A model generated the notes under the pieces. That model made no database searches. It had not been told where the DNA came from and worked only from the letters and a program-made list of their open reading frames with translations. 64,000 nt of DNA from NCBI GenBank assembly GCA_008501735.1, contig QQUF01000049.1:4945-68944 (forward strand), written 5' to 3'. Origin of the DNA: Calditrichota bacterium. GTDB taxonomy: Bacteria; CLD3. This document shows positions 6,517 to 47,120 of the stretch, one piece after another. Position numbers and translations under genes: made by a program. Each line of letters opens with the position of its first letter. Positions within the stretch are counted from its first letter, which is position 1.

Positions 6517-8415
6517 CTATTCCAAATCCTTAACTAACAAAGCGTCGGCAATTTTACTTTTCAATTTTTCGCGAAGTTTTGTGCGCCTAACTTTGTTTAA
6601 GTCAATTAAAGAGCCTTTGTTTGAACTTACGTTTAGCCAGTGCGAAAGAATCCGAACTTTATCAAGTTCATCTTTGTCAAACGGAATTCTTATTCCAGCT
6701 TCTCTGTTGTAAAACTCTTTGTCTAAGAAATTTTCGATTAAAGTTATTTTTGATTTCTTTTGAAAAAAGCTAAAAATATTTTTCAACTTTCCACTCAAAA
6801 CTACAAAAATTTTAATTTCTCGCGGGTTTACAGATGGTAGAATTATCAAGAAATTATTTTCAATTAATTCACGAGAAAGCAAATGTCTTGACTTATTAAT
6901 TAACTCAAGACTTTCGATTCGGTTCTGAGTTTTTTGGGCGTACTCGAAATCTAATTTCTTCGCAGCATTGTCCCGAACTTCAATTAATTTCTCAATTGGT
7001 TGTTTAGTCTTTGACTTCAAAAAATCTATCAGTTCGACCAAAGTTTCGTTGTAACGCTCTTTGCTAACAGACAAATTACAAGGAGCTTCACACTGCTTTA
7101 GGTGAAAGAAAAAACAAGCCTCAAAATCTTCTTTCGGATTCAAGTCTTCTTCACACTGACGAACCAAAAACGACCTATGGATTTCGTCTAAAATTCTTTC
7201 AAGATTTCTCAATTGACGAAAAGGTCCGAAGTACATTCCTTTGTCAGGTGAAATTTTTTGAGTAATTAAAATTCTTGGGAAATCGTTATCGAGGTCAATT
7301 TTTAAAAATGGTAAATTCGTATAATTTTTAATTTGGTAATTGTAAAGCGGTTGATTTTTTTTGATGAGTTCCGACTCCAAAAGCAAAGCCTCAAGTTCAG
7401 AACCAAGAATTTCGTATTCGATTCGGTAAGTATTTTGGACGAGACTTTTAACCTTTTCCGAATGCCCTTGGTTTTGGTAAAAATAACTGTTTACTCTGTG
7501 TTTCAGATTCTTAGCTTTACCGATGTAAATCGTTTTGTCATTTTTGTCTTTGAAAAAATAAACTCCTGGAACTTCTGGAAAAAACCTTACCATTGTTCGG
7601 TTGTAATGTAATTTTTCAGGGTTTAGTTTGCGGACAGCAGGTTTTTGGAAGTTAACCAAAGAATGAAAATCATAAATATTTGCATTCGGAAGCATTTCAA
7701 AGAATCTTAGCAAAATCTTAGCTGTTGCTGTTGCATCTTCCAAAGCCCTGTGGTGTTTCAGTTTAATTCCAAAATGTTCACTGATTGCTAAAAGACCTTT
7801 TTGTTTTAAACCTCTGAGAAGTTTTCTTGCGATTCGTAAAGTACAAATTGAGTCGTTTGCAAGAACCTCACCTGTTAGGTTTTCAACTTCAAAATCCAAG
7901 AACATCAAATCAAAGTCCGAGTTATGAGCAACTAAAACCGAATCTTCTCCAATCCACTCCAAAAAATTTGGCAAAACATCTTCAATTTTTGGGGAGTCTT
8001 TAACCATTTCATTTGTGATTCCAACGATTCTTTGAACGTTGTAAGGAATTTTCTTTTCAGGATTAATCAGAGATTCAAAAGTATCAACGAATTTGCCGTT
8101 TACGATTTTTACTGCACCGATTTCGGTAATCCTATCTTTCGGAGGAGCAGAACCTGTTGTCTCAAAATCAAGCACAACATAAGTTCTATCGCTAAACCGA
8201 ACTAAATTTTCCTTGCCGTCCAAAGTCTTAAGAATTTTCCAAAAACCTGTTTCCAATTTTTCAAAACGGTTGTCATTTTTGAGTAGAGATTCGAGAATTC
8301 TCTCGGCGGGAATTAATGTGTTTTTAGATTTTGTGTTAAAAAGATGAGTGAAAATTTCTTCTGTGGAACAAGGTTTCCCTTGATTTGCGATATAAGTGTA
8401 GACTTTGTCTTGCAT
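6517..8415 (-). CDS. DnaQ exonuclease / UvrC-like GIY-YIG nuclease fusion
   Basis: A 632-residue DNA-processing protein with four parts. Residues 1-65 look like a small winged-helix domain (TEEIFTHLF...ERILESLL). Residues 78-245 are a DnaQ-type 3'-5' exonuclease with DFETTG (D83, E85), HNSDFDLMF and HRALEDATAT carrying the DEDDh acidic and histidine residues. Residues 275-360 are a GIY-YIG nuclease (PGVYFF, TIYIGKAKNLKHRVNSYF) as in UvrC and Cho. A UVR-like helical pair follows at about 468-511. The C-terminal RNase H-like and HhH parts of true UvrC are not evident, so this is not the housekeeping UvrC. Similar exonuclease/Cho fusions are known in actinobacteria and Bacteroidota; a role in DNA repair is inferred. 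Confidence 0.9.
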   Translation of the reverse strand: MQDKVYTYIANQGKPCSTEEIFTHLFNTKSKNTLIPAERILESLLKNDNRFEKLETGFWKILKTLDGKENLVRFSDRTYVVLDFETTGSAPPKDRITEIGAVKIVNGKFVDTFESLINPEKKIPYNVQRIVGITNEMVKDSPKIEDVLPNFLEWIGEDSVLVAHNSDFDLMFLDFEVENLTGEVLANDSICTLRIARKLLRGLKQKGLLAISEHFGIKLKHHRALEDATATAKILLRFFEMLPNANIYDFHSLVNFQKPAVRKLNPEKLHYNRTMVRFFPEVPGVYFFKDKNDKTIYIGKAKNLKHRVNSYFYQNQGHSEKVKSLVQNTYRIEYEILGSELEALLLESELIKKNQPLYNYQIKNYTNLPFLKIDLDNDFPRILITQKISPDKGMYFGPFRQLRNLERILDEIHRSFLVRQCEEDLNPKEDFEACFFFHLKQCEAPCNLSVSKERYNETLVELIDFLKSKTKQPIEKLIEVRDNAAKKLDFEYAQKTQNRIESLELINKSRHLLSRELIENNFLIILPSVNPREIKIFVVLSGKLKNIFSFFQKKSKITLIENFLDKEFYNREAGIRIPFDKDELDKVRILSHWLNVSSNKGSLIDLNKVRRTKLREKLKSKIADALLVKDLE

Positions 8416-8442
8416 AAAAGTTCATCAGTCTTGTAGAAGGTT

Positions 8443-9219
8443 TTAACCTTTTTTCATTAAGGAAATTATTTCTTTGGCATTTTTGGAAGATTCTAAAACT
8501 AGAGAAAGTTTTTCTTCTAAGTCTTCTATGTTGAGACGTTCTTTTCTTTTTGTCCGAACCATTCTTTTGAGCGTTACAACGTCCCAATTAAATTCAATTG
8601 GAATTTGGTCAAAAAGACTCATTGCTTTTTTAACATCGCCTTCTTCGTAGTAAATATTTCCAAGAAATGAAAATGCCTCGTAAAATTCATCGACTTCGCT
8701 AATTGCATTCCAAAGGTGGTCTTTTGCGAAAAGCATTCCGAGAACGTGTCTGCAAACTCCAATTCCAAAATTTGCGTCAGGATTCATCGGGTCAATTTCA
8801 ATAGCTAAATCAAAGAACCTAAGTGCTTGCAAAAAATATTCATAGTTGCACAAAGCTCTGCCGATTGAAGTTGCGTATTCGGCTTTTGTTTCATCTTCCT
8901 CATCAAAATTAAGCATTGAGTTTTCAAACAAGGTCATTGCTGCATCAATTCTATTGAAATTGAGTAATGAAATTCCCAAACCAATTTGCATATCTGGGTT
9001 CTCAGCCTCAATCTCAAGACCTTTCTCAAATGCTAATTTTGCCATTCCGAATTCTTCAATCTCAAGATTCGCCATTCCGATTCCATTAATTAATTCGGGT
9101 GAACTTGGGTACTGTTCAAGTCCTTCTTGGAAAGTATTTAACGCAATTCCAGGTTTACAATCTTTTAGTAAAATGAAACCTCGATTAACAAATTCTTCTA
9201 AAGGAGCGAATTCCTTCAT
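8443..9219 (-). CDS. TPR-repeat protein
   Basis: A 258-residue soluble protein made mainly of tetratricopeptide repeats; units such as ALNTFQEGLEQYPSSPELINGIGMANLEI and ALRFFDLAIEIDPMNPDANFGIGVCRHVLG show the W/LG/Y/A/F/A/P spacing. No signal peptide. Its ATG overlaps the TAA stop of the upstream membrane-protein gene by one base (TAATG), which indicates coupling, and it ends 27 bases before the exonuclease gene. It probably acts as a protein-binding scaffold; the partner is not known. Confidence 0.85.
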   Translation of the reverse strand: MKEFAPLEEFVNRGFILLKDCKPGIALNTFQEGLEQYPSSPELINGIGMANLEIEEFGMAKLAFEKGLEIEAENPDMQIGLGISLLNFNRIDAAMTLFENSMLNFDEEDETKAEYATSIGRALCNYEYFLQALRFFDLAIEIDPMNPDANFGIGVCRHVLGMLFAKDHLWNAISEVDEFYEAFSFLGNIYYEEGDVKKAMSLFDQIPIEFNWDVVTLKRMVRTKRKERLNIEDLEEKLSLVLESSKNAKEIISLMKKG

Positions 9220-10241
9220 TAACTATCGCCTTCTGTTTGGATGCTTGAAAATGATAATTTTTCTTTCCAAAAATAGTAAAAACCGATGATGTTTATTGGA
9301 ATGAATTGTGTAATGTAATGATTAACCAATGCAAAACCCAAAGCTAAATTTGGCAGAATTCCGCCATTACTCAAGAAAATTAAAATTTCTTTATAAGCTG
9401 CATCTAAAGTCCCAACTGAGCCAGGACCTGCAGGAATCATAACCGAAATTCCACCAACAACAATTATCACTAAAGTTGCGGGAAAAAGTTCACCGATTTT
9501 GTCTTCAATTCCAAAAGTGTAAATCGTAAAATAAAGATTTGCAATGAAACAAGCCCACATTACCAAAGAACTTGCAATTACTGGAATGAAATGCTCAGTT
9601 TTTTGCAAAGAGGCAATACCTATCCAAAAAGAACGAAGAATTCCGATAAGTTTTTCAGATAGGTCTTTAGGAAACTTGCTTAAGAAAAACATCGCTATTT
9701 TTTTCGCTGTCTCTTTCGCAAAAAGCGGAAAAAGTAAGCCCGATAAGACGAAAAGAGTTCCAACTAAAATTATTGTTCCTGAACTCGAAAGAGTTCTTCC
9801 AAGAAATTCCCGTTCAGCGAGATGCGGATTAAGAACAATTGCTCCAATCAGCAAAAGCAGAAGTGTAAGCACATCAACAATTCTTTCAACCACAATTGTT
9901 GCAAAGGAAGTTGTGCGAGAAATGTTTTCGGTTTTGCCAATTACGTAAGCTCTAAAAAATTCACCAAGTCTTAGTGGAAAAATATTTAAAGCCATATAAC
10001 CAACCATCACAGCAGAATAGAGATTGCTCAGTTTCACATCTTTCACATCGCTTAACAAGTAGCGCCAACGAACTGCACGAAGCCAGTAACTGAGAATGTG
10101 TGCAGCAATCGCTGGAATTAGCCAAAGCCAATTTGAGTCCAAAATCGTTTGCCAAAGTTCAGCGAAAAGAATGTCTTTAAAGGCAAGATAAATGAAAAAA
10201 ACACTGATTAAAGTGCCAATTAGGAATTTAAGTATTTTCAC
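9219..10241 (-). CDS. LPG-synthase-type integral membrane protein (flippase-like)
   Basis: A 340-residue polytopic membrane protein of the lysylphosphatidylglycerol synthase TM-region family (UPF0104, AglD/MprF-N type). Family signatures are NIFPLRLGEFFRAYVIG (about residues 81-97), the ATIVVERIVDVLTLLLL helix, and PAGPGSVGTLDAAYKEI near residue 270. About eight hydrophobic helices are visible. Members are thought to move or use lipid-linked substrates; the substrate here is not known. It is the first gene of a unit with the TPR protein, which it overlaps by one base. Confidence 0.88.
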   Translation of the reverse strand: MKILKFLIGTLISVFFIYLAFKDILFAELWQTILDSNWLWLIPAIAAHILSYWLRAVRWRYLLSDVKDVKLSNLYSAVMVGYMALNIFPLRLGEFFRAYVIGKTENISRTTSFATIVVERIVDVLTLLLLLIGAIVLNPHLAEREFLGRTLSSSGTIILVGTLFVLSGLLFPLFAKETAKKIAMFFLSKFPKDLSEKLIGILRSFWIGIASLQKTEHFIPVIASSLVMWACFIANLYFTIYTFGIEDKIGELFPATLVIIVVGGISVMIPAGPGSVGTLDAAYKEILIFLSNGGILPNLALGFALVNHYITQFIPINIIGFYYFWKEKLSFSSIQTEGDS

Positions 10242-10360
10242 GAAAGCTCTCTTCTTACGAAACGAAAATTGTCTAATTTTGAGTTAGAAAATTGAAAGGT
10301 TAAGTTAAATGAATTTTGAGAAAAAGCAAAAATCTTAGTTCTTAAATCTCTAAGACAAAA

Positions 10361-10393
10361 AAAGGTGCTAAGGAATAATTCCTTAGCACCTTT
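10361..10393 (-). terminator. Rho-independent terminator of T9SS protein gene
   Basis: Perfect 15-bp arms (10361-10375 and 10379-10393, GGTGCTAAGGAA type) with a three-base loop, and on the minus strand a run of seven to eight T directly after the stem. It lies 32 bases beyond the stop of the minus-strand gene that ends at 10425. Confidence 0.9.
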
Positions 10394-10424
10394 ATCAAAT
10401 TGAGATAATTTTAATCAAATAAAA

Positions 10425-12392
10425 TTATTTGAGAAGAACCATTTTTTTGATGTCAGTGAAGTTACCACTAGTGAGTTTGTAGAAATAAACACCACTTGCA
10501 ACTTTACTTCCATTTAAGTCAGTTCCGTCCCATTGTGCAGTGTGATTTACACCACCAACAATTTTTTCGCTAACCAATGTTTTAACTTCTTGTCCTAAGA
10601 CATTAAAAATAGTTAAAGAAGCAAAATCAGTTTCTGGAATTTGGAAGCTGATTTGAGTTGTTGGATTAAATGGATTAGGGAAGTTTTGAGCTAAGTTGTA
10701 GCTTTTAACGATGTTATCGTTTTCATCAACATCAACACCTAAATTAGAAGTTACTGTTGCTCTAATCATCAAGTTATCAGTTGCTCTTGAACGGTCAGGA
10801 GCAAATCCACCAGTGTATTCCCAACCTCTGTTACAAGGAGCGAAATTTGTTTGCTCAATTCTAATTCCAAAAGAACTGTTTACAAGGTGAAGAACTGAAA
10901 CTGCAAATTTGCCACTGTTAAGTTGGTAAGGTTGTGGAAGAACTGTTTCATAAACAGTGTTGCCAGCAGTTACTTGAATAACTTCTTCGTGAATAACTGT
11001 TCCTGGTTGGTCTTGGTTTGGACCTGCATCCATTAAGTGAACTCTAACCCAAGCTGGACCAGCTGCTGTTAAATCACCTGATTCAAACTCTGCTTTATTA
11101 ATCCAAATAGGATAAGCATCAGCAGGGAATTCAAATTCGTTTGCAAAACCTGAAGAGTCTCCATTCCAAGAACGGCTTGTAAAGTTTTGCTCAACTCCGT
11201 CATAACGAACCAAAACTTCTGGCTGTGTAAAATCAACAACTCTGTATTGAGTATATAGTTTGTCGTTAAGGTTATTACCATCAGTTGGATTAGTTTTTAC
11301 TTCGAATTCCATTGCGAAAGGACCAACGTCATTAGCTGTTGGAGCAAAAGGAGTTGGAAAAGAGAAAGTCTGACTTGTTTGAGCATCTAAAACACCAATT
11401 TGCTCAGTTTCATTGTAAAGTAAACTGAATGCAGGCATTAAAAACATTCTTAAAGTTGTTTGAACTGTAGTAGAATTAATAGTACCAAAGTTTTGTAAAG
11501 AAAGTGTTGGATACAAAGTATCACCAACATTTAAGAAAAATGCTTGGTTAAAGTTATTGTTTACCCAACCTGGACCAACATCTTCAATTTGGAAAGTAGT
11601 CGAAGAAGGTGGGTCAAATTTTACAACTAAACTATCTGCATAAATATTTTCAATTGGAAGGTTATCTCTTAAGTATGCAATTCCTAAATCATTTCCAACA
11701 CCAGATAAAGCTCCAAGAACTGTTTCAATTCCAATTACATTCGCAAGTGAACCTTGGTCAGTGAAATCACCAGTTTGAGGTCCGTACTGCATAGTGATTG
11801 AAGAATCAGCTCCAGAAATAATAATTTGGAAAGTGTGAGCAGTTACTGCTGGAGGAATATTTGAACTAAATTCTCTAATGCCTTCCCAAGAAATAATTGT
11901 AGAATCAGTTCCATTTGTCCAAAACCAAGCATTTCCTGGAGAACCAGGACCTGGATCTAAATCACCGCAAAGTCCACAAACAAGGTCGTTTGGTAAAGCA
12001 GTACTTTTAAATTCAGAAAAATTGTGGTTGAAAGGAAGTGGAGAAGACCAAGATATCCCACCATTAGATTTAATCCAAAGTTTGTCCACTGAATACCAGT
12101 AGTAACTAAAGTCAAAACCTAATTGGTATGGTCCAATTGAGTTATCATCTGTAAACAAAGGTTTAATATCTACTGCATTTGGTAATACACTTACGTCAAT
12201 CCAGTTATAAACTGGAGCAGCAGCAGTTGTGTCATTACTATCAATGTAAGTGTATCCAAAGTCATCTGAACCAGTTGCATTGATAGAATTAGGCTTAATT
12301 TTTACAGAGTAGTTAGCCTCTGTAACGGCAAAAGCCGAAGTAGCTAATAAAGCTCCTATTCCGAGAACAAGAAAAGGATTAGCATGTTTCAT
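10425..12392 (-). CDS. Secreted T9SS-sorted protein
   Basis: A 655-residue exported protein. Residues 1-22 form a Sec signal peptide ending AFAV/TEA, and the last 90 residues are a T9SS type A sorting domain: NLAQNFPNPFNPTTQISFQIP, TIFNVLGQEVKTL, then GVYFYKLTSG and a C-terminal KKMVLLK. The body (about residues 60-560) is beta-rich with no catalytic motif I can recognise; it contains CARDB/Ig-like stretches. The start has GGAGGAATTAAATT upstream of ATG, a good ribosome site. A strong terminator follows. It is expected to be carried across the outer membrane by the T9SS and attached or released at the surface. The function is unknown. Confidence 0.9.
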   Translation of the reverse strand: MKHANPFLVLGIGALLATSAFAVTEANYSVKIKPNSINATGSDDFGYTYIDSNDTTAAAPVYNWIDVSVLPNAVDIKPLFTDDNSIGPYQLGFDFSYYWYSVDKLWIKSNGGISWSSPLPFNHNFSEFKSTALPNDLVCGLCGDLDPGPGSPGNAWFWTNGTDSTIISWEGIREFSSNIPPAVTAHTFQIIISGADSSITMQYGPQTGDFTDQGSLANVIGIETVLGALSGVGNDLGIAYLRDNLPIENIYADSLVVKFDPPSSTTFQIEDVGPGWVNNNFNQAFFLNVGDTLYPTLSLQNFGTINSTTVQTTLRMFLMPAFSLLYNETEQIGVLDAQTSQTFSFPTPFAPTANDVGPFAMEFEVKTNPTDGNNLNDKLYTQYRVVDFTQPEVLVRYDGVEQNFTSRSWNGDSSGFANEFEFPADAYPIWINKAEFESGDLTAAGPAWVRVHLMDAGPNQDQPGTVIHEEVIQVTAGNTVYETVLPQPYQLNSGKFAVSVLHLVNSSFGIRIEQTNFAPCNRGWEYTGGFAPDRSRATDNLMIRATVTSNLGVDVDENDNIVKSYNLAQNFPNPFNPTTQISFQIPETDFASLTIFNVLGQEVKTLVSEKIVGGVNHTAQWDGTDLNGSKVASGVYFYKLTSGNFTDIKKMVLLK

Positions 12393-42872: not shown

Positions 42873-43559
42873 ATGTCAAAGAAAGCAGTAATCTTTTTCT
42901 CGCGTAGTTTCAAAACAGAATCTCAAGCCAAAAACTTTTGTCCTAAAAGCCAAAAACTCTCCGAAAAAATCACAAACAGAATTTCAAAAAATGTTCTCCA
43001 AAGCCTTAAAAATCTTGAGTTTGAGAAATTCTGGTTTTCAGATGTTTTGATTTCAGAAAGCCTTTTGGAAAAATTCAACTTCCAAGAAAACATTTTACAA
43101 GAAGGAAAAGACCTTCGCGAAAAAATCCAAAATGCTTTCACCCTGCTCTTTAAAAAAGGCTTTGAAGAAATTCTCATTCTCGGCAACGACACTCTTTTAA
43201 ACTCTTCCGAAATCAGAAAAGCATTCGCAGAGCAAAAAGACGTTCTCGGAAAATCTGCCGACGGAGGTTTCTACCTTCTAAAAATCAAAAAAGGCTCTGC
43301 AAACTTTCAAGTTCTCTCAGCAGAAAATTGGCGTGAAGGAAAACTCAAACTTGGCAATTTCGATTTCAAATTTCTAAAAACCAAATTTGACTTTGACACA
43401 CTAAAAGACTTTCTCAATTTTTTCCCTGACCTAAAATTTGTAAAAACAATCCTGAATGAAATTCTCAAACCGATAATTTTTTCTTTAGAAAAAACAACTA
43501 ACAGATTTTCTAAAACCTCAAGAATTTTCTCCAACAAATCCCCTCCAATCTTCGCTTAA
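42873..43559 (+). CDS. TIGR04282/DUF2064-type glycosyltransferase
   Basis: A 228-residue protein that matches the DUF2064 / TIGR04282 family: AVIFFSRSFKTE in place of the usual KxPxxGxVKTRL start, then FEEILILGNDTLLNSSEIRKAF (the GxDxP-like site) and LGKSADGGFYLLKIKKG. Proteins of TIGR04282 are annotated as arsenosugar-biosynthesis glycosyltransferases because they occur with ArsM and ArsS. The canonical IGTDCP motif is altered here to LGNDTL, and the N-terminal nucleotide site is shortened, so activity may be changed. It lies directly before the radical SAM/ArsM fusion gene, with a palindrome between. Assignment is by pattern; moderate certainty. Confidence 0.7.
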   Translation: MSKKAVIFFSRSFKTESQAKNFCPKSQKLSEKITNRISKNVLQSLKNLEFEKFWFSDVLISESLLEKFNFQENILQEGKDLREKIQNAFTLLFKKGFEEILILGNDTLLNSSEIRKAFAEQKDVLGKSADGGFYLLKIKKGSANFQVLSAENWREGKLKLGNFDFKFLKTKFDFDTLKDFLNFFPDLKFVKTILNEILKPIIFSLEKTTNRFSKTSRIFSNKSPPIFA

Positions 43560-43561
43560 AA

Positions 43562-43635
43562 AACATCCCTCTTAATCTCCCTTCAAAGGGGGACTTTCCA
43601 GTTTCTCCCTTTGAAGGGAGATTAAGAGGGATGTT
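43562..43635 (+). repeat. 29-bp perfect inverted repeat between glycosyltransferase and ArsM fusion
   Basis: Arms at 43562-43590 and 43607-43635 are perfect complements of 29 bases (AACATCCCTCTTAATCTCCC... type), with a 16-base loop. It begins a few bases after the glycosyltransferase stop. No T-run follows on the plus strand, so it is a mobile or REP-like hairpin more than a classical terminator, though the long stem may attenuate or protect mRNA ends. Confidence 0.85.
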
Positions 43636-43738
43636 AACAAACTTTTTAAAAACTTGCGGAATTCACGCCCAAAGCGGGTTTTACGCTCCAAGACAAGAAT
43701 TAAAACTTTATTTTTTACTCAAAAAAAGAAGGATAACA

Positions 43739-46225
43739 ATGATTTCTTTTGAACCAAAATCAATTTTTTACACACCAAATTACGCACAAAAGCAATACGA
43801 TTCAGGTTACTTTTTCATTGACTACGAAGCTCCAAATTGGATTTTGACTGACGAAAAAGGTGCAAAAATTACAAACTTACTCAATGGCAGAAATTCACTC
43901 GAAGACGTTGCTCGTGAGTACAGCAAAACTTTCGGATTTGACCTCCAAAAATCTTGGCTTCACGTGAACCACTTCATCAAAAGAGGAATTCATCACAAAT
44001 TCGTTTTCGACACTCCGAAAAATTACGCTCCTTATCCGGGAAGAAAAGAATTCCTAAACAGTGCAAATCTCAAAGAAATGTGGGTTCACACGAACAATTC
44101 TTGCAACCTCGCTTGCGCTCATTGTTTGGTGAATTCTTCGCCGCAAGAACACAAAGGACTTCCAACCAACAAAGTTTTGAGCGTGATTCGTGAAGGTCTT
44201 GAACTCGGTGTGAAAAAAATGTATTTCACAGGAGGCGAGCCGTTTTTCAGAAAAGATATTTTTGAATTAATTGACACTGCTCTTGAAAAATCGGAACTCA
44301 CAATCCTTTCAAACGGAATTCTTTTCAAAGGCGAAACTCTTCAAAAACTCAAAAATTACGACAAATCAAAACTCACTTTACAAATTTCTTTGGACGGTTC
44401 AAAACCTTCTTTCAATGATCCAATTCGTGGAAAAGGAAGTTTTGAAAACATCATCAAAGGAATCAAAAATTTAATTGAAATCGGTTATGAGCCGACAATC
44501 ACAACAACTGTTACAAAACAAAATTTGCCCGATTTAGACAACGTGGTTAGGCTTCTTTCCGAACTAAAAGTAAAAAGACTTCACTTGCTTTGGCTTCACC
44601 GAAAAGGTCGTGCAGTTGGTGCAAGTTACGAAGTTGAAAATTACGAAATTATTCAAAAACTGCGTGAAGTCAAACCTCTTGCCGATTCGCTTGGAGTTTC
44701 GATTGACAATTTTGAAGAATTTGAGCTAAGAATCAACGGGCAGAAAAATGTTAAAAATGACTTGAGCGTTGCAGGAGTCGAGTCGCTTTGCGTTTACTCT
44801 GACGGAAGAGTTTATCCTTCAGCAGCTTTCGTGCAAGTCGAAGAACTTCTTTGCGGAGACGTAAACGAAACTTCATTAAAAGAAATTTTGGAAACTTCCG
44901 AAATTGTTCAAGAATTTCTGAGTGCAACAGTTCAGAAAAAAGCTGTTTCACACTCTGATTCGATGAAATTTCTTTCAGGAGGCGGAGACATTGAACACAG
45001 TTTTTACTACTCAAAAGCAATCACAGGAAAAGGAAATATTCTCGGAGCTGACCCTTACGACGAAGTTTACAACTACTTGATGGACGAAGCGATTAAAAAA
45101 CTTTACGTTGAAAATCGCAGAAAATTGAACACAAAAGCAGGTTTTGACGCTCCAACTATTTTCTACTCAATGGGCGAACTTGGTGTAACTTGCGGCGACG
45201 AAGAAGAAAATGTTCACCTTTTCGGCGAATTCGGAGTCAATACTTTGCACTCAAATTGTGTGCTTGACCTCAGTTACGATAAGTCTCACGAGAAAGTCCA
45301 AGAATTTTACGGCGAAGCAATGGACGAGCCACAACCTGAACTTTGTTGCCCGACAAGTTACGACCCAACTGATACAGACCACATTCCACGAGAAGTTTTG
45401 GAAAGATTTTACGGTTGCGGTTCACCGATGAGCATTGCAGGAGTTACCGAAGGCGAAACTGTTGTTGACTTAGGTTCTGGAGCAGGAATTGACTGTTTTA
45501 TCGCCGCGAAAAAAGTTGGTGCTGACGGAAGAGTTATCGGAGTCGATATGACTGCAGAAAGCCTCGAACAAGCGAGAATGCACAACAAACTCGTAACTGA
45601 AAATCTTGGTTTTGACATTTGTGATTTCCGCGAAGGTTTTATGGAAGAAGTTCCTGTTAAGGACAAAGAAGTCGATTTAATCACTTCAAACTGCGTGATA
45701 AATCTTTCACCTGACAAGAAAAAAGTTTTTGCGGAAATGTGGCGAATCCTTAAAGACCACGGGAGAATCGTAATTTCTGACATTGTTTCGGAAGTCGAAG
45801 TTCCGCCTTACTTACAAGTAAATCCTGTTCTTTGGGGTGAATGTTTGTCGGGAGCTTTGACGGAGAGAGATTTTGTTTCGATGCTCGAAGAAGCAGGTTT
45901 TTATGGACTCACGACTCTCAAAAAAACTTACTGGAAATCCGTTGAAGGCTATAAATTTTTCTCAGTAACTGTTTCAGGATTCAAGTTTGAGAAAAAAGAA
46001 GGTTGTGTTTTTATCGGACAAAAAGCGATTTACCAAGGACCCTTCAAGTCAATTATGGACGAAGAAGGACATTTTTTCCCAAGAGGTGAAGCGGTAGAAA
46101 TTTGCACAGACACTGCACAAAAATTACAAAACTTACCTTACAAAGGAGCGTTCCAAATCATCGAAGGCGACAAAATGCCCGACGAATTTGTGAACGACTG
46201 TTGTGTTGATGGAGCTTGTTGCTGA
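43739..46225 (+). CDS. PqqD-like / radical SAM / ArsM arsenite methyltransferase fusion
   Basis: An 828-residue cytoplasmic protein. Residues 1-95 resemble a PqqD-like domain (ILTDEKGAKITNLLNGRNSLEDVAREY). Residues 112-440 are a radical SAM domain with the [4Fe-4S] motif CNLACAHC (C122, C126, C129), GGEPF near 165 and a SPASM-like LCVYSDGRVYPSAA. Residues 540-760 are an ArsM-type methyltransferase: YGCGSP, VVDLGSGAGIDCF, NCVINLSPDKKKVF and LWGECLSGALTERDF, with the conserved arsenic-binding cysteines. The C-terminus is CCVDGACC. The start is ATG 43739 with AAGGA upstream; an in-frame ATG inside the palindrome is rejected. ArsM methylates arsenite; the radical SAM part may add an adenosyl or other carbon group. 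A single-chain version is unusual. Confidence 0.92.
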   Translation: MISFEPKSIFYTPNYAQKQYDSGYFFIDYEAPNWILTDEKGAKITNLLNGRNSLEDVAREYSKTFGFDLQKSWLHVNHFIKRGIHHKFVFDTPKNYAPYPGRKEFLNSANLKEMWVHTNNSCNLACAHCLVNSSPQEHKGLPTNKVLSVIREGLELGVKKMYFTGGEPFFRKDIFELIDTALEKSELTILSNGILFKGETLQKLKNYDKSKLTLQISLDGSKPSFNDPIRGKGSFENIIKGIKNLIEIGYEPTITTTVTKQNLPDLDNVVRLLSELKVKRLHLLWLHRKGRAVGASYEVENYEIIQKLREVKPLADSLGVSIDNFEEFELRINGQKNVKNDLSVAGVESLCVYSDGRVYPSAAFVQVEELLCGDVNETSLKEILETSEIVQEFLSATVQKKAVSHSDSMKFLSGGGDIEHSFYYSKAITGKGNILGADPYDEVYNYLMDEAIKKLYVENRRKLNTKAGFDAPTIFYSMGELGVTCGDEEENVHLFGEFGVNTLHSNCVLDLSYDKSHEKVQEFYGEAMDEPQPELCCPTSYDPTDTDHIPREVLERFYGCGSPMSIAGVTEGETVVDLGSGAGIDCFIAAKKVGADGRVIGVDMTAESLEQARMHNKLVTENLGFDICDFREGFMEEVPVKDKEVDLITSNCVINLSPDKKKVFAEMWRILKDHGRIVISDIVSEVEVPPYLQVNPVLWGECLSGALTERDFVSMLEEAGFYGLTTLKKTYWKSVEGYKFFSVTVSGFKFEKKEGCVFIGQKAIYQGPFKSIMDEEGHFFPRGEAVEICTDTAQKLQNLPYKGAFQIIEGDKMPDEFVNDCCVDGACC

Positions 46226-46285: not shown

Positions 46286-46768
46286 TCAAAGAATCGGGAA
46301 ATCCGTTCCTGAAATTGGTCTGCCTAACAATCGGCAAAGAGTAACGATTTGACCTTGATGTTGGTAGATGTGCGTGAAAGTTCTTAGGAAAACTCGTGCA
46401 GGAATGAGATTTCTCTCGTTGTTTCCCCAAGTAATCATTTTCCGTTCAGTGTTAAGTTCTTCGGTAGAAGCATTTTTGAGGTAATTTTCTGTCGTTGTAA
46501 AAACTTGCTCTCGGTAATTTTTCAAGGATTCGATTGTTGTGAAATCAGAGGCGTTGTCGTCAACTTTCATCAAACCTTCAACAACTCCAATCCAATATTC
46601 TTCCGCACCAATTGTATGGTGGAATTGTTGCAAAATATTAGGATAACCAAATCCTTCAAACTCGCGATTTAATTCTTCACTGTTAAATTTGTCGCAATGT
46701 TCAAGCAACTTTTGCAAAGTGTTGTGTCCGCGAGTGTGCAAGTCTTGTAAAGTTTCTGTTGTGTACAT
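46286..46768 (-). CDS. DinB family protein
   Basis: A 160-residue four-helix-bundle protein of the DinB/YfiT superfamily: LHTRGHNTLQKLLEHC near the N-terminus, HHTIGAEEYWIGVVEGL, and TFTHIYQHQGQIVTLCRLLG at the end, which supply the three metal-ligand histidines (one per motif). Many members are metal-dependent thiol transferases. Its position next to the arsenic locus and a thioredoxin-fold gene would fit thiol chemistry, but that is only context. It starts 16 bases after the HxlR gene on the same strand and is probably its operon partner. Confidence 0.85.
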   Translation of the reverse strand: MYTTETLQDLHTRGHNTLQKLLEHCDKFNSEELNREFEGFGYPNILQQFHHTIGAEEYWIGVVEGLMKVDDNASDFTTIESLKNYREQVFTTTENYLKNASTEELNTERKMITWGNNERNLIPARVFLRTFTHIYQHQGQIVTLCRLLGRPISGTDFPIL

Positions 46769-46784
46769 TTTTTGCCTTTAGTTT

Positions 46785-47120
46785 TTACTTTGAGTTTGCG
46801 ATTTTTTCATCAAGTTCTTGAATTTGTGAAATTATCAAAACAAGTGATTCGCCTGCTTCGGTCAAAGTGTATTCGGTTCTTGGTGGAACTTCTGCAAAAA
46901 TATGTTTTTCAAGCAAACCGTAATCGGTCAACCTCCGAAGCCTTTCGGAAAGTACTTTCGTTGAAATTCCCTCAATGCTTCTTTCAAGAATTCCAGGTCT
47001 TTTAATTCCTAGTCGAACTGCTTCTAAAACTGAAACAGACCATTTGCAACCTATTACTTTTTCAAGCCTTTCGTAAGACTTTCTTGAGCTTTTTAATTTT
47101 TTTTCGTCCATAATAATCAA
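46785..47120 (-). CDS. HxlR family transcriptional regulator
   Basis: A 111-residue winged-helix regulator of the HxlR type: VIGCKWSVSVLEAVRLGIKRPGILERSIEGIS, then TKVLSERLRRLTDYGLLEKHIFAEVPPRTEYTLTEAG, the standard recognition helix and wing. HxlR proteins sense redox or electrophile stress, often through an N-terminal cysteine; here that cysteine is in GCKW (residue 25 from the first Met). Start at 47120 or at the Met three codons on. The promoter region is shared with the divergent thioredoxin-fold gene. Confidence 0.92.
   Translation of the reverse strand: MIIMDEKKLKSSRKSYERLEKVIGCKWSVSVLEAVRLGIKRPGILERSIEGISTKVLSERLRRLTDYGLLEKHIFAEVPPRTEYTLTEAGESLVLIISQIQELDEKIANSK

Follow-up and report, generated by a model that had tools for sequence, protein, structure and literature searches.

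A conserved single-chain fusion of a radical SAM enzyme and an ArsM methyltransferase, with a probable link to an arsenosugar-type pathway

The window, a stretch of 64,000 nucleotides from a Calditrichota bacterium, encodes a protein in which a PqqD/RRE-like domain, a radical SAM core and a SPASM-like region are joined, in one chain, to an ArsM methyltransferase. The protein represents a real, conserved enzyme architecture, probably linked to an arsenosugar-type pathway and apparently undescribed: no description of an ArsM-radical SAM fusion is found in family models or in the openly accessible literature other than bioRxiv. We consider it probable, if only just, that this is a bifunctional enzyme initiating an arsenosugar-type organoarsenical pathway, where it would do the job of ArsM and ArsS together.

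The gene is an uninterrupted open reading frame on the plus strand of the window (43739–46225), coding for 828 amino acids. An in-frame ATG upstream, at 43631, gives an alternative product of 864 residues; the start at 43739 is favoured, since it is preceded by AGAAGGA and relatives begin at the matching position. The features of the region are reported below, with the evidence for each; residue numbers refer to the 828-residue protein.

42873–43559, plus strand: divergent DUF2064/TIGR04282-like gene, upstream of the fusion (54 bits, cut-off 134)
43562–43635, no strand: inverted repeat in the gap from the DUF2064 gene to the fusion, with 32-nt arms (97% complementary) and a 10-nt loop (sequence)
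43727–43733, plus strand: probable ribosome-binding site, AGAAGGA (read from sequence)
43739–46225, plus strand: fusion gene, 828 residues, with PqqD/RRE-like domain, radical SAM, SPASM-like region and ArsM (ORF, Pfam, predicted structure and structure alignment)
43775–44002, plus strand: PqqD/RRE-like winged-helix domain, residues 13–88 (Pfam PqqD in relatives; structure alignment to CteB/TigE)
44102–44125, plus strand: CNLACAHC, radical SAM [4Fe-4S] ligands C122, C126 and C129 (invariant, 27/27)
44228–44242, plus strand: TGGEP, SAM-binding motif of the radical SAM core, residues 164–168 (invariant, 27/27)
44777–45028, plus strand: SPASM-like region, residues 347–430; C351 kept, auxiliary-cluster cysteines replaced (Pfam, alignment)
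45248–45265, plus strand: junction motif HSNCVL, with C507; corresponds to the C-terminus of the stand-alone radical SAM protein and is kept in all fused forms
45278–46168, plus strand: ArsM domain, residues 514–810 (Pfam, alignment to ArsM, structure alignment)
45344–45349, plus strand: C536-C537, at the position of CmArsM C44 (alignment to CrArsM; invariant)
45416–45418, plus strand: C560, equivalent to CmArsM C72 (alignment)
45692–45694, plus strand: C652, equivalent to CmArsM C174 (alignment)
45842–45844, plus strand: C702, equivalent to CmArsM C224 (alignment)
46196–46222, plus strand: Cys-rich C-terminal tail CCVDGACC (CC ending common to relatives)

Architecture and fold of the fused protein

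Open reading frame, Pfam matches and predicted structure agree on the single chain described by the original prediction, with its PqqD-like, radical SAM, SPASM-like and ArsM parts; the motifs it had pointed out (CNLACAHC, NCVINLSPDK, LWGECLSGAL, CCVDGACC) are all present. The radical SAM core is recognized by Pfam Radical_SAM (PF04055) at residues 120–272 (E = 7e-25; 88.5 bits, cut-off 29.5) and, having the CxxxCxxC motif as well, belongs to the radical SAM superfamily. As had been anticipated, it is not an ArsS: the ArsS model, TIGR04167, scores 64.6 bits on the window protein, against a cut-off of 300. NCBIfam matches of this half are to Rv1681-type, StsB, WgkB and NirJ2 proteins, all below their cut-offs.

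The SPASM-like region is matched by Pfam SPASM (PF13186) with 20.0 bits, just under the cut-off of 21.5. Where many relatives have CxxCxxxxxC, the window lineage has SHSDSMKFLS, and of the conserved set only C351 is left; the CxxCxxxxxC motif is kept by about half of the family (e.g. L013 and L014), and the ligands are gone in several lineages. Because these cysteines are missing, the window protein is unlikely, judging by sequence, to carry a typical auxiliary [4Fe-4S] cluster; the catalytic core is conserved. Degeneration of the radical SAM region, foreseen as a possible objection to the original prediction, is thus real for the auxiliary cluster of this lineage but not for the core.

Pfam PqqD (PF05402) is not found by sequence in the window protein itself; it is matched in 16 of the 27 family members, with E values up to 0.5 (best 1.4e-7). 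These matches identify the N-terminal domain along with the structural alignments. In an AlphaFold2 model built from 27 relatives (mean pLDDT 84, pTM 0.83), residues 13–459 align with CteB, a sactipeptide maturase, at Z 31.0 and residues 7–475 with TigE at Z 26.2, the N-terminal domain being included in both cases. The same model places the ArsM fold, with its C-terminal domain, at residues 532–812, which align to CmArsM (6cx6) with Z 26.9 over 277 residues (rmsd 6.8).

In the C-terminal half, Pfam Methyltransf_31 matches residues 571–720 (4e-31). The arsenic-binding cysteines of CmArsM are numbered 72, 174 and 224, with 44 as the fourth (PMC5552862); their counterparts C560, C652, C702 and C536/C537 are invariant in all 27 full-length relatives, as is proper to an ArsM. 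Three ArsM models, NF008823 (231 bits, cut-off 263), NF038099 (154 bits, cut-off 400) and NF040538 (220.7 bits, cut-off 500), are the best NCBIfam matches of this half, yet all stay below their cut-offs. TIGR04345, previously named for ArsM, is presumably the ovoA C-terminal model. Nor does any NCBIfam model cover the fusion, which excludes a common, already annotated arsenosugar protein of the same layout. The ArsM half forms a separate group, with 30–40% identity to the ArsM proteins found beside ArsS. Compared with full-length relatives other than the 86% identical L012, identity is 54–66% for the ArsM half versus 33–45% for the radical SAM half.

C507, at the junction of the two halves, is invariant among the 27 full-length relatives. 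The CC-ending tail is found in all 26 other full-length fusions, three of which have a final Ser, and also in five stand-alone ArsM proteins of the fusion clade and in six ArsM close to ArsS. Seven further ArsM proteins, among them the stand-alone one of the window's genome, do not have it; since they are also without the ArsM C-terminal domain, the tail may simply accompany that domain.

Distribution, variant forms and split counterparts

Full-length homologs include a member of the same family (L012, 86% identity), one from an Acidobacteria MAG (50%) and one from a MAG titled Nitrospira (46%). The full-length fusion is present in two out of nine genomes of the window's own small phylum and in 12 out of 396 genomes of an Acidobacteriota draw. 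In a third phylum (395 genomes), about 21 shorter forms, indicated as type B, are found together with about 17 full-length ones, the latter number being read off the listed scores and taking in one copy divided between two contigs. Listing the genomes with the same fusion, as initially proposed, shows it in several phyla; with full-length homologs there whose similarity extends over hundreds of residues, it is neither a singleton nor an assembly chimera. In a plasmid collection, the matches listed were to the ArsM half only, and none of them covered 80% of the query.

Type B fusions, from the third phylum, are without the ArsM C-terminal domain and keep more of the SPASM cysteines. In six out of six flanks examined (L096–L100, L148) a B12-binding radical SAM gene lies directly 3' of the type B gene, as in L098, where the two occupy 8366–10777 and 10815–12299. 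The best NCBIfam matches of this neighbour are BchE, HpnJ and P-methyltransferase-like models. ArsS scores over its cut-off in two of three genomes tested having this gene pair, and a partial match is found in the third. The type B system possibly makes a different organoarsenical or a phosphorus-type product. A further form, type C (L078, L079, L080), is about 1050 residues long; its C-terminal region matches the metal-binding selenoprotein MbdU (NF045648, 123.5 bits in L079).

In three genomes (G408, G418, G427) the two halves are separate genes: each genome encodes a 480-residue radical SAM protein, which stops exactly at the junction motif (...HCSCVLTV), and an ArsM of about 315 residues with a terminal CC. 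An in-frame TGA in the split radical SAM gene had suggested a selenocysteine, which was ruled out: the TGA is the gene end and adjoins the TIGR04282 start. A gene for TIGR04282 (203 bits in L102, cut-off 134) overlaps that of the split radical SAM protein, and the split ArsM shares an operon with TVP38 and with TIGR04283, which scores 275 bits in L103 (cut-off 182). NCBI names TIGR04282 and TIGR04283 as arsenosugar biosynthesis glycosyltransferases. A conserved, Cys-containing protein of about 120 residues, with no NCBIfam match, is also encoded beside the split-genome ArsM (L101:8384–8749, L103:3013–3381, L105:2628–2984). Trees set apart the full-length fusions, the type B and type C forms and the split proteins; at their deep forks they do not distinguish one origin of the fusion from several.

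Gene neighbourhood and co-occurrence with arsenosugar genes

At least one of the families TIGR04282, TIGR04283, TVP38, DUF547, MerA-like and Pit is encoded within 10 kb of the fusion in 17 of the 27 full-length loci, a count that takes in three loci with Pit alone and the weak gene of the window, and in which some loci are closely related. The same families are found within 10 kb in none of five type B loci. In L071 a compact operon consists of MerA-like, DUF547, TIGR04283, fusion and TIGR04282 genes; in L074 all six families surround the fusion. In L089, L090 and L091 the fusion gene shares its last few bases with a Pit-family phosphate transporter gene: the overlap suggests translational coupling, with arsenate uptake as a possible reason.

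An ArsS locus of the same phylum, L132, carries TIGR04282, ArsM, ArsS, Pit, TVP38, MerA-like and TIGR04283 genes, and L114 is similar. Since ArsS loci of the same phylum feature the same partner families, the fusion occupies the position where sister genomes have the ArsM and ArsS pair.

No ArsS scores over the cut-off in 26 of the 28 genomes with a full-length fusion, the window's among them; in 19 of the 26, TIGR04282 and TIGR04283 both exceed their cut-offs. Within the Acidobacteriota draw, 7 of 10 genomes having the fusion without ArsS carry TIGR04283, as do 51 of 65 having ArsS and 56 of 321 having neither; compared with the last group, Fisher p values are 5e-4 for fusion only and 3e-21 for ArsS, both optimistic because the genomes of the draw are akin to one another. 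Mutual exclusion of fusion and ArsS gives no signal in this draw: both are present in 2 of the 12 fusion genomes, about two being expected. As the two are statistically independent, a replacement of ArsS by the fusion is suggested by position and by the many ArsS-free genomes, not by exclusion.

At the window itself the neighbourhood evidence is weaker than in relatives. The sole linked partner is the sub-cut-off TIGR04282-like gene, whose link to the fusion is uncertain; the long hairpin between the two is the only occurrence of that sequence in the window's genome and is without a T-run. In the 86% identical relative, no partner is found within 10 kb. On other contigs, the window's genome encodes TIGR04282 (188 bits) and TIGR04283 (221 bits); no ArsS was found there. 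A stand-alone ArsM (L135:7893–9124, contig C55) lies on a separate contig from the fusion and is preceded by what appears, by eye, to be an ArsR-type regulator; this pair could serve plain methylation or detoxification. Downstream of the fusion, DinB-family and HxlR-family genes are present on the minus strand (46286–47120 of the window), with no arsenic link seen.

Proposed function and alternatives

According to PMC12159101, in a statement citing Cheng 2021, ArsS adenosylates arsenic in the second step of cyanobacterial arsenosugar synthesis. For the window protein we infer two reactions, their order and a hand-over between them. The C-terminal ArsM domain would convert arsenite to dimethylarsenite, using SAM; the radical SAM domain, derived from the RRE/SPASM (RiPP-maturase-like) branch and not from ArsS, would then cleave a second SAM and couple the 5'-deoxyadenosyl radical to the methylated arsenic. 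The product would be of the dimethylarsinoyl-5'-deoxyadenosine type, to be processed by the TIGR04282/TIGR04283 glycosyltransferases and their partners. Candidate residues for the arsenic hand-over between the two sites are the invariant C507 and the CC at the C-terminal end. The complex organoarsenical product envisaged from the start is best read as arsenosugar-type chemistry, with a putative channelling of the arsenic, given the arsenosugar-cluster neighbourhood in relatives; type B fusions, found in genomes that also have ArsS and without linked arsenosugar genes, count against the proposal.

The known pair of ArsM and ArsS (NF038099/TIGR04167) resembles the fusion in combining an arsenic methyltransferase with a radical SAM enzyme, in its six neighbour families (TIGR04282, TIGR04283, TVP38, DUF547, MerA-like, Pit) and in the CC tail of its ArsM. 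It differs in having two chains instead of one; moreover, the radical SAM part of the fusion has an RRE/PqqD-like domain and a SPASM-like region, scoring 64.6 bits versus the 300 required, and its ArsM half stands in its own group, at 30–40% identity.

Sequence alone cannot decide which group is transferred by the fused radical SAM domain. A group other than 5'-deoxyadenosyl, such as the 3-amino-3-carboxypropyl transferred by ArsL in arsinothricin synthesis (PMC8552651), would lead to an arsenic amino acid or another organoarsenical; we regard this as unlikely. ArsL and ArsM (NF040542/NF040538) are a known route to arsinothricin (PMC8552651), in which a radical SAM enzyme and an ArsM likewise make a carbon-arsenic bond, and the ArsM half does match the arsinothricin ArsM profile NF040538; but its 220.7 bits stay below the cut-off of 500, and the match is limited to the shared ArsM core and C-terminal region. 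ArsL is absent from the best 25 NCBIfam matches of both the window protein and the split radical SAM protein, matching instead the type B neighbour (67 bits). No ArsQ-type partner was recognised, and the full-length fusion is accompanied by arsenosugar glycosyltransferases.

An RRE-like domain is not expected in an enzyme acting on small molecules, which also counts against the proposal. CteB, TigE and StsB share with the fusion the order RRE, radical SAM, SPASM, and the fold is matched with Z 26–31 over about 400 residues, CteB (Z 31) and TigE (Z 26.2) being the best matches of the N-terminal half. They differ from it in lacking ArsM, and the window lineage is without their auxiliary-cluster cysteines. 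If the fusion were a RiPP-type maturase, the RRE/PqqD-like domain would bind a leader peptide, the radical SAM domain would modify the peptide, and arsenic would be bound or added to it. No precursor peptide was found, however: 501 short ORFs within 1.5 kb of the fusion gave no cross-lineage match, though a precursor might lie farther away, and the partners are glycosyltransferases and transporters. We hold a maturase to be slightly less probable still than an ArsL-like transfer, and the peptide- or lipid-bound substrate that the PqqD-like domain had called to mind, although the domain is real, finds no support.

With the same slight probability, the protein might be mainly a detoxifying arsenite methyltransferase, its radical SAM part being auxiliary or redox, or removing or rearranging groups on arsenic: the better conservation of the ArsM half and the loss of SPASM ligands in several lineages would fit, but all 27 relatives keep the radical SAM core motifs unchanged, the window's genome has its separate ArsR-ArsM pair, and arsenosugar enzyme genes cluster with the fusion in relatives. 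No more probable, and speculative, is a tethered arsenic, in which the RRE-like domain would bind either a small carrier or the Cys-rich tail of the protein itself, with the CC tail swinging the methylated arsenic from the ArsM site past C507 to the radical SAM site; this would be, at similarly long shot, an arsenic counterpart of carrier-protein biosynthesis, with a peptide-recognition domain recruited for a metalloid.

ArsM is joined to other domains in ArsRM, ArsM-SelD and the ArsM/AhpD and ArsM/DUF2284 selenoproteins (PMC10190100, PMC5552862, NF041537, NF041536), none of which, in contrast to the fusion, includes a radical SAM enzyme. To return to the favoured reading, an enzyme initiating an arsenosugar-type pathway, a radical SAM enzyme of the peptide-maturase type seems to have replaced ArsS in its role and to have become fused to ArsM, which would surprise a specialist. 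This points to a second, hitherto undescribed entry into the arsenosugar pathway. In the searchable literature, ArsS and ArsL are the only radical SAM families reported to make carbon-arsenic bonds; the fusion, which has its methyltransferase in the same polypeptide and occurs in bacteria without ArsS, would be the third. If so, arsenosugar-type compounds are predicted in Acidobacteriota and other groups.
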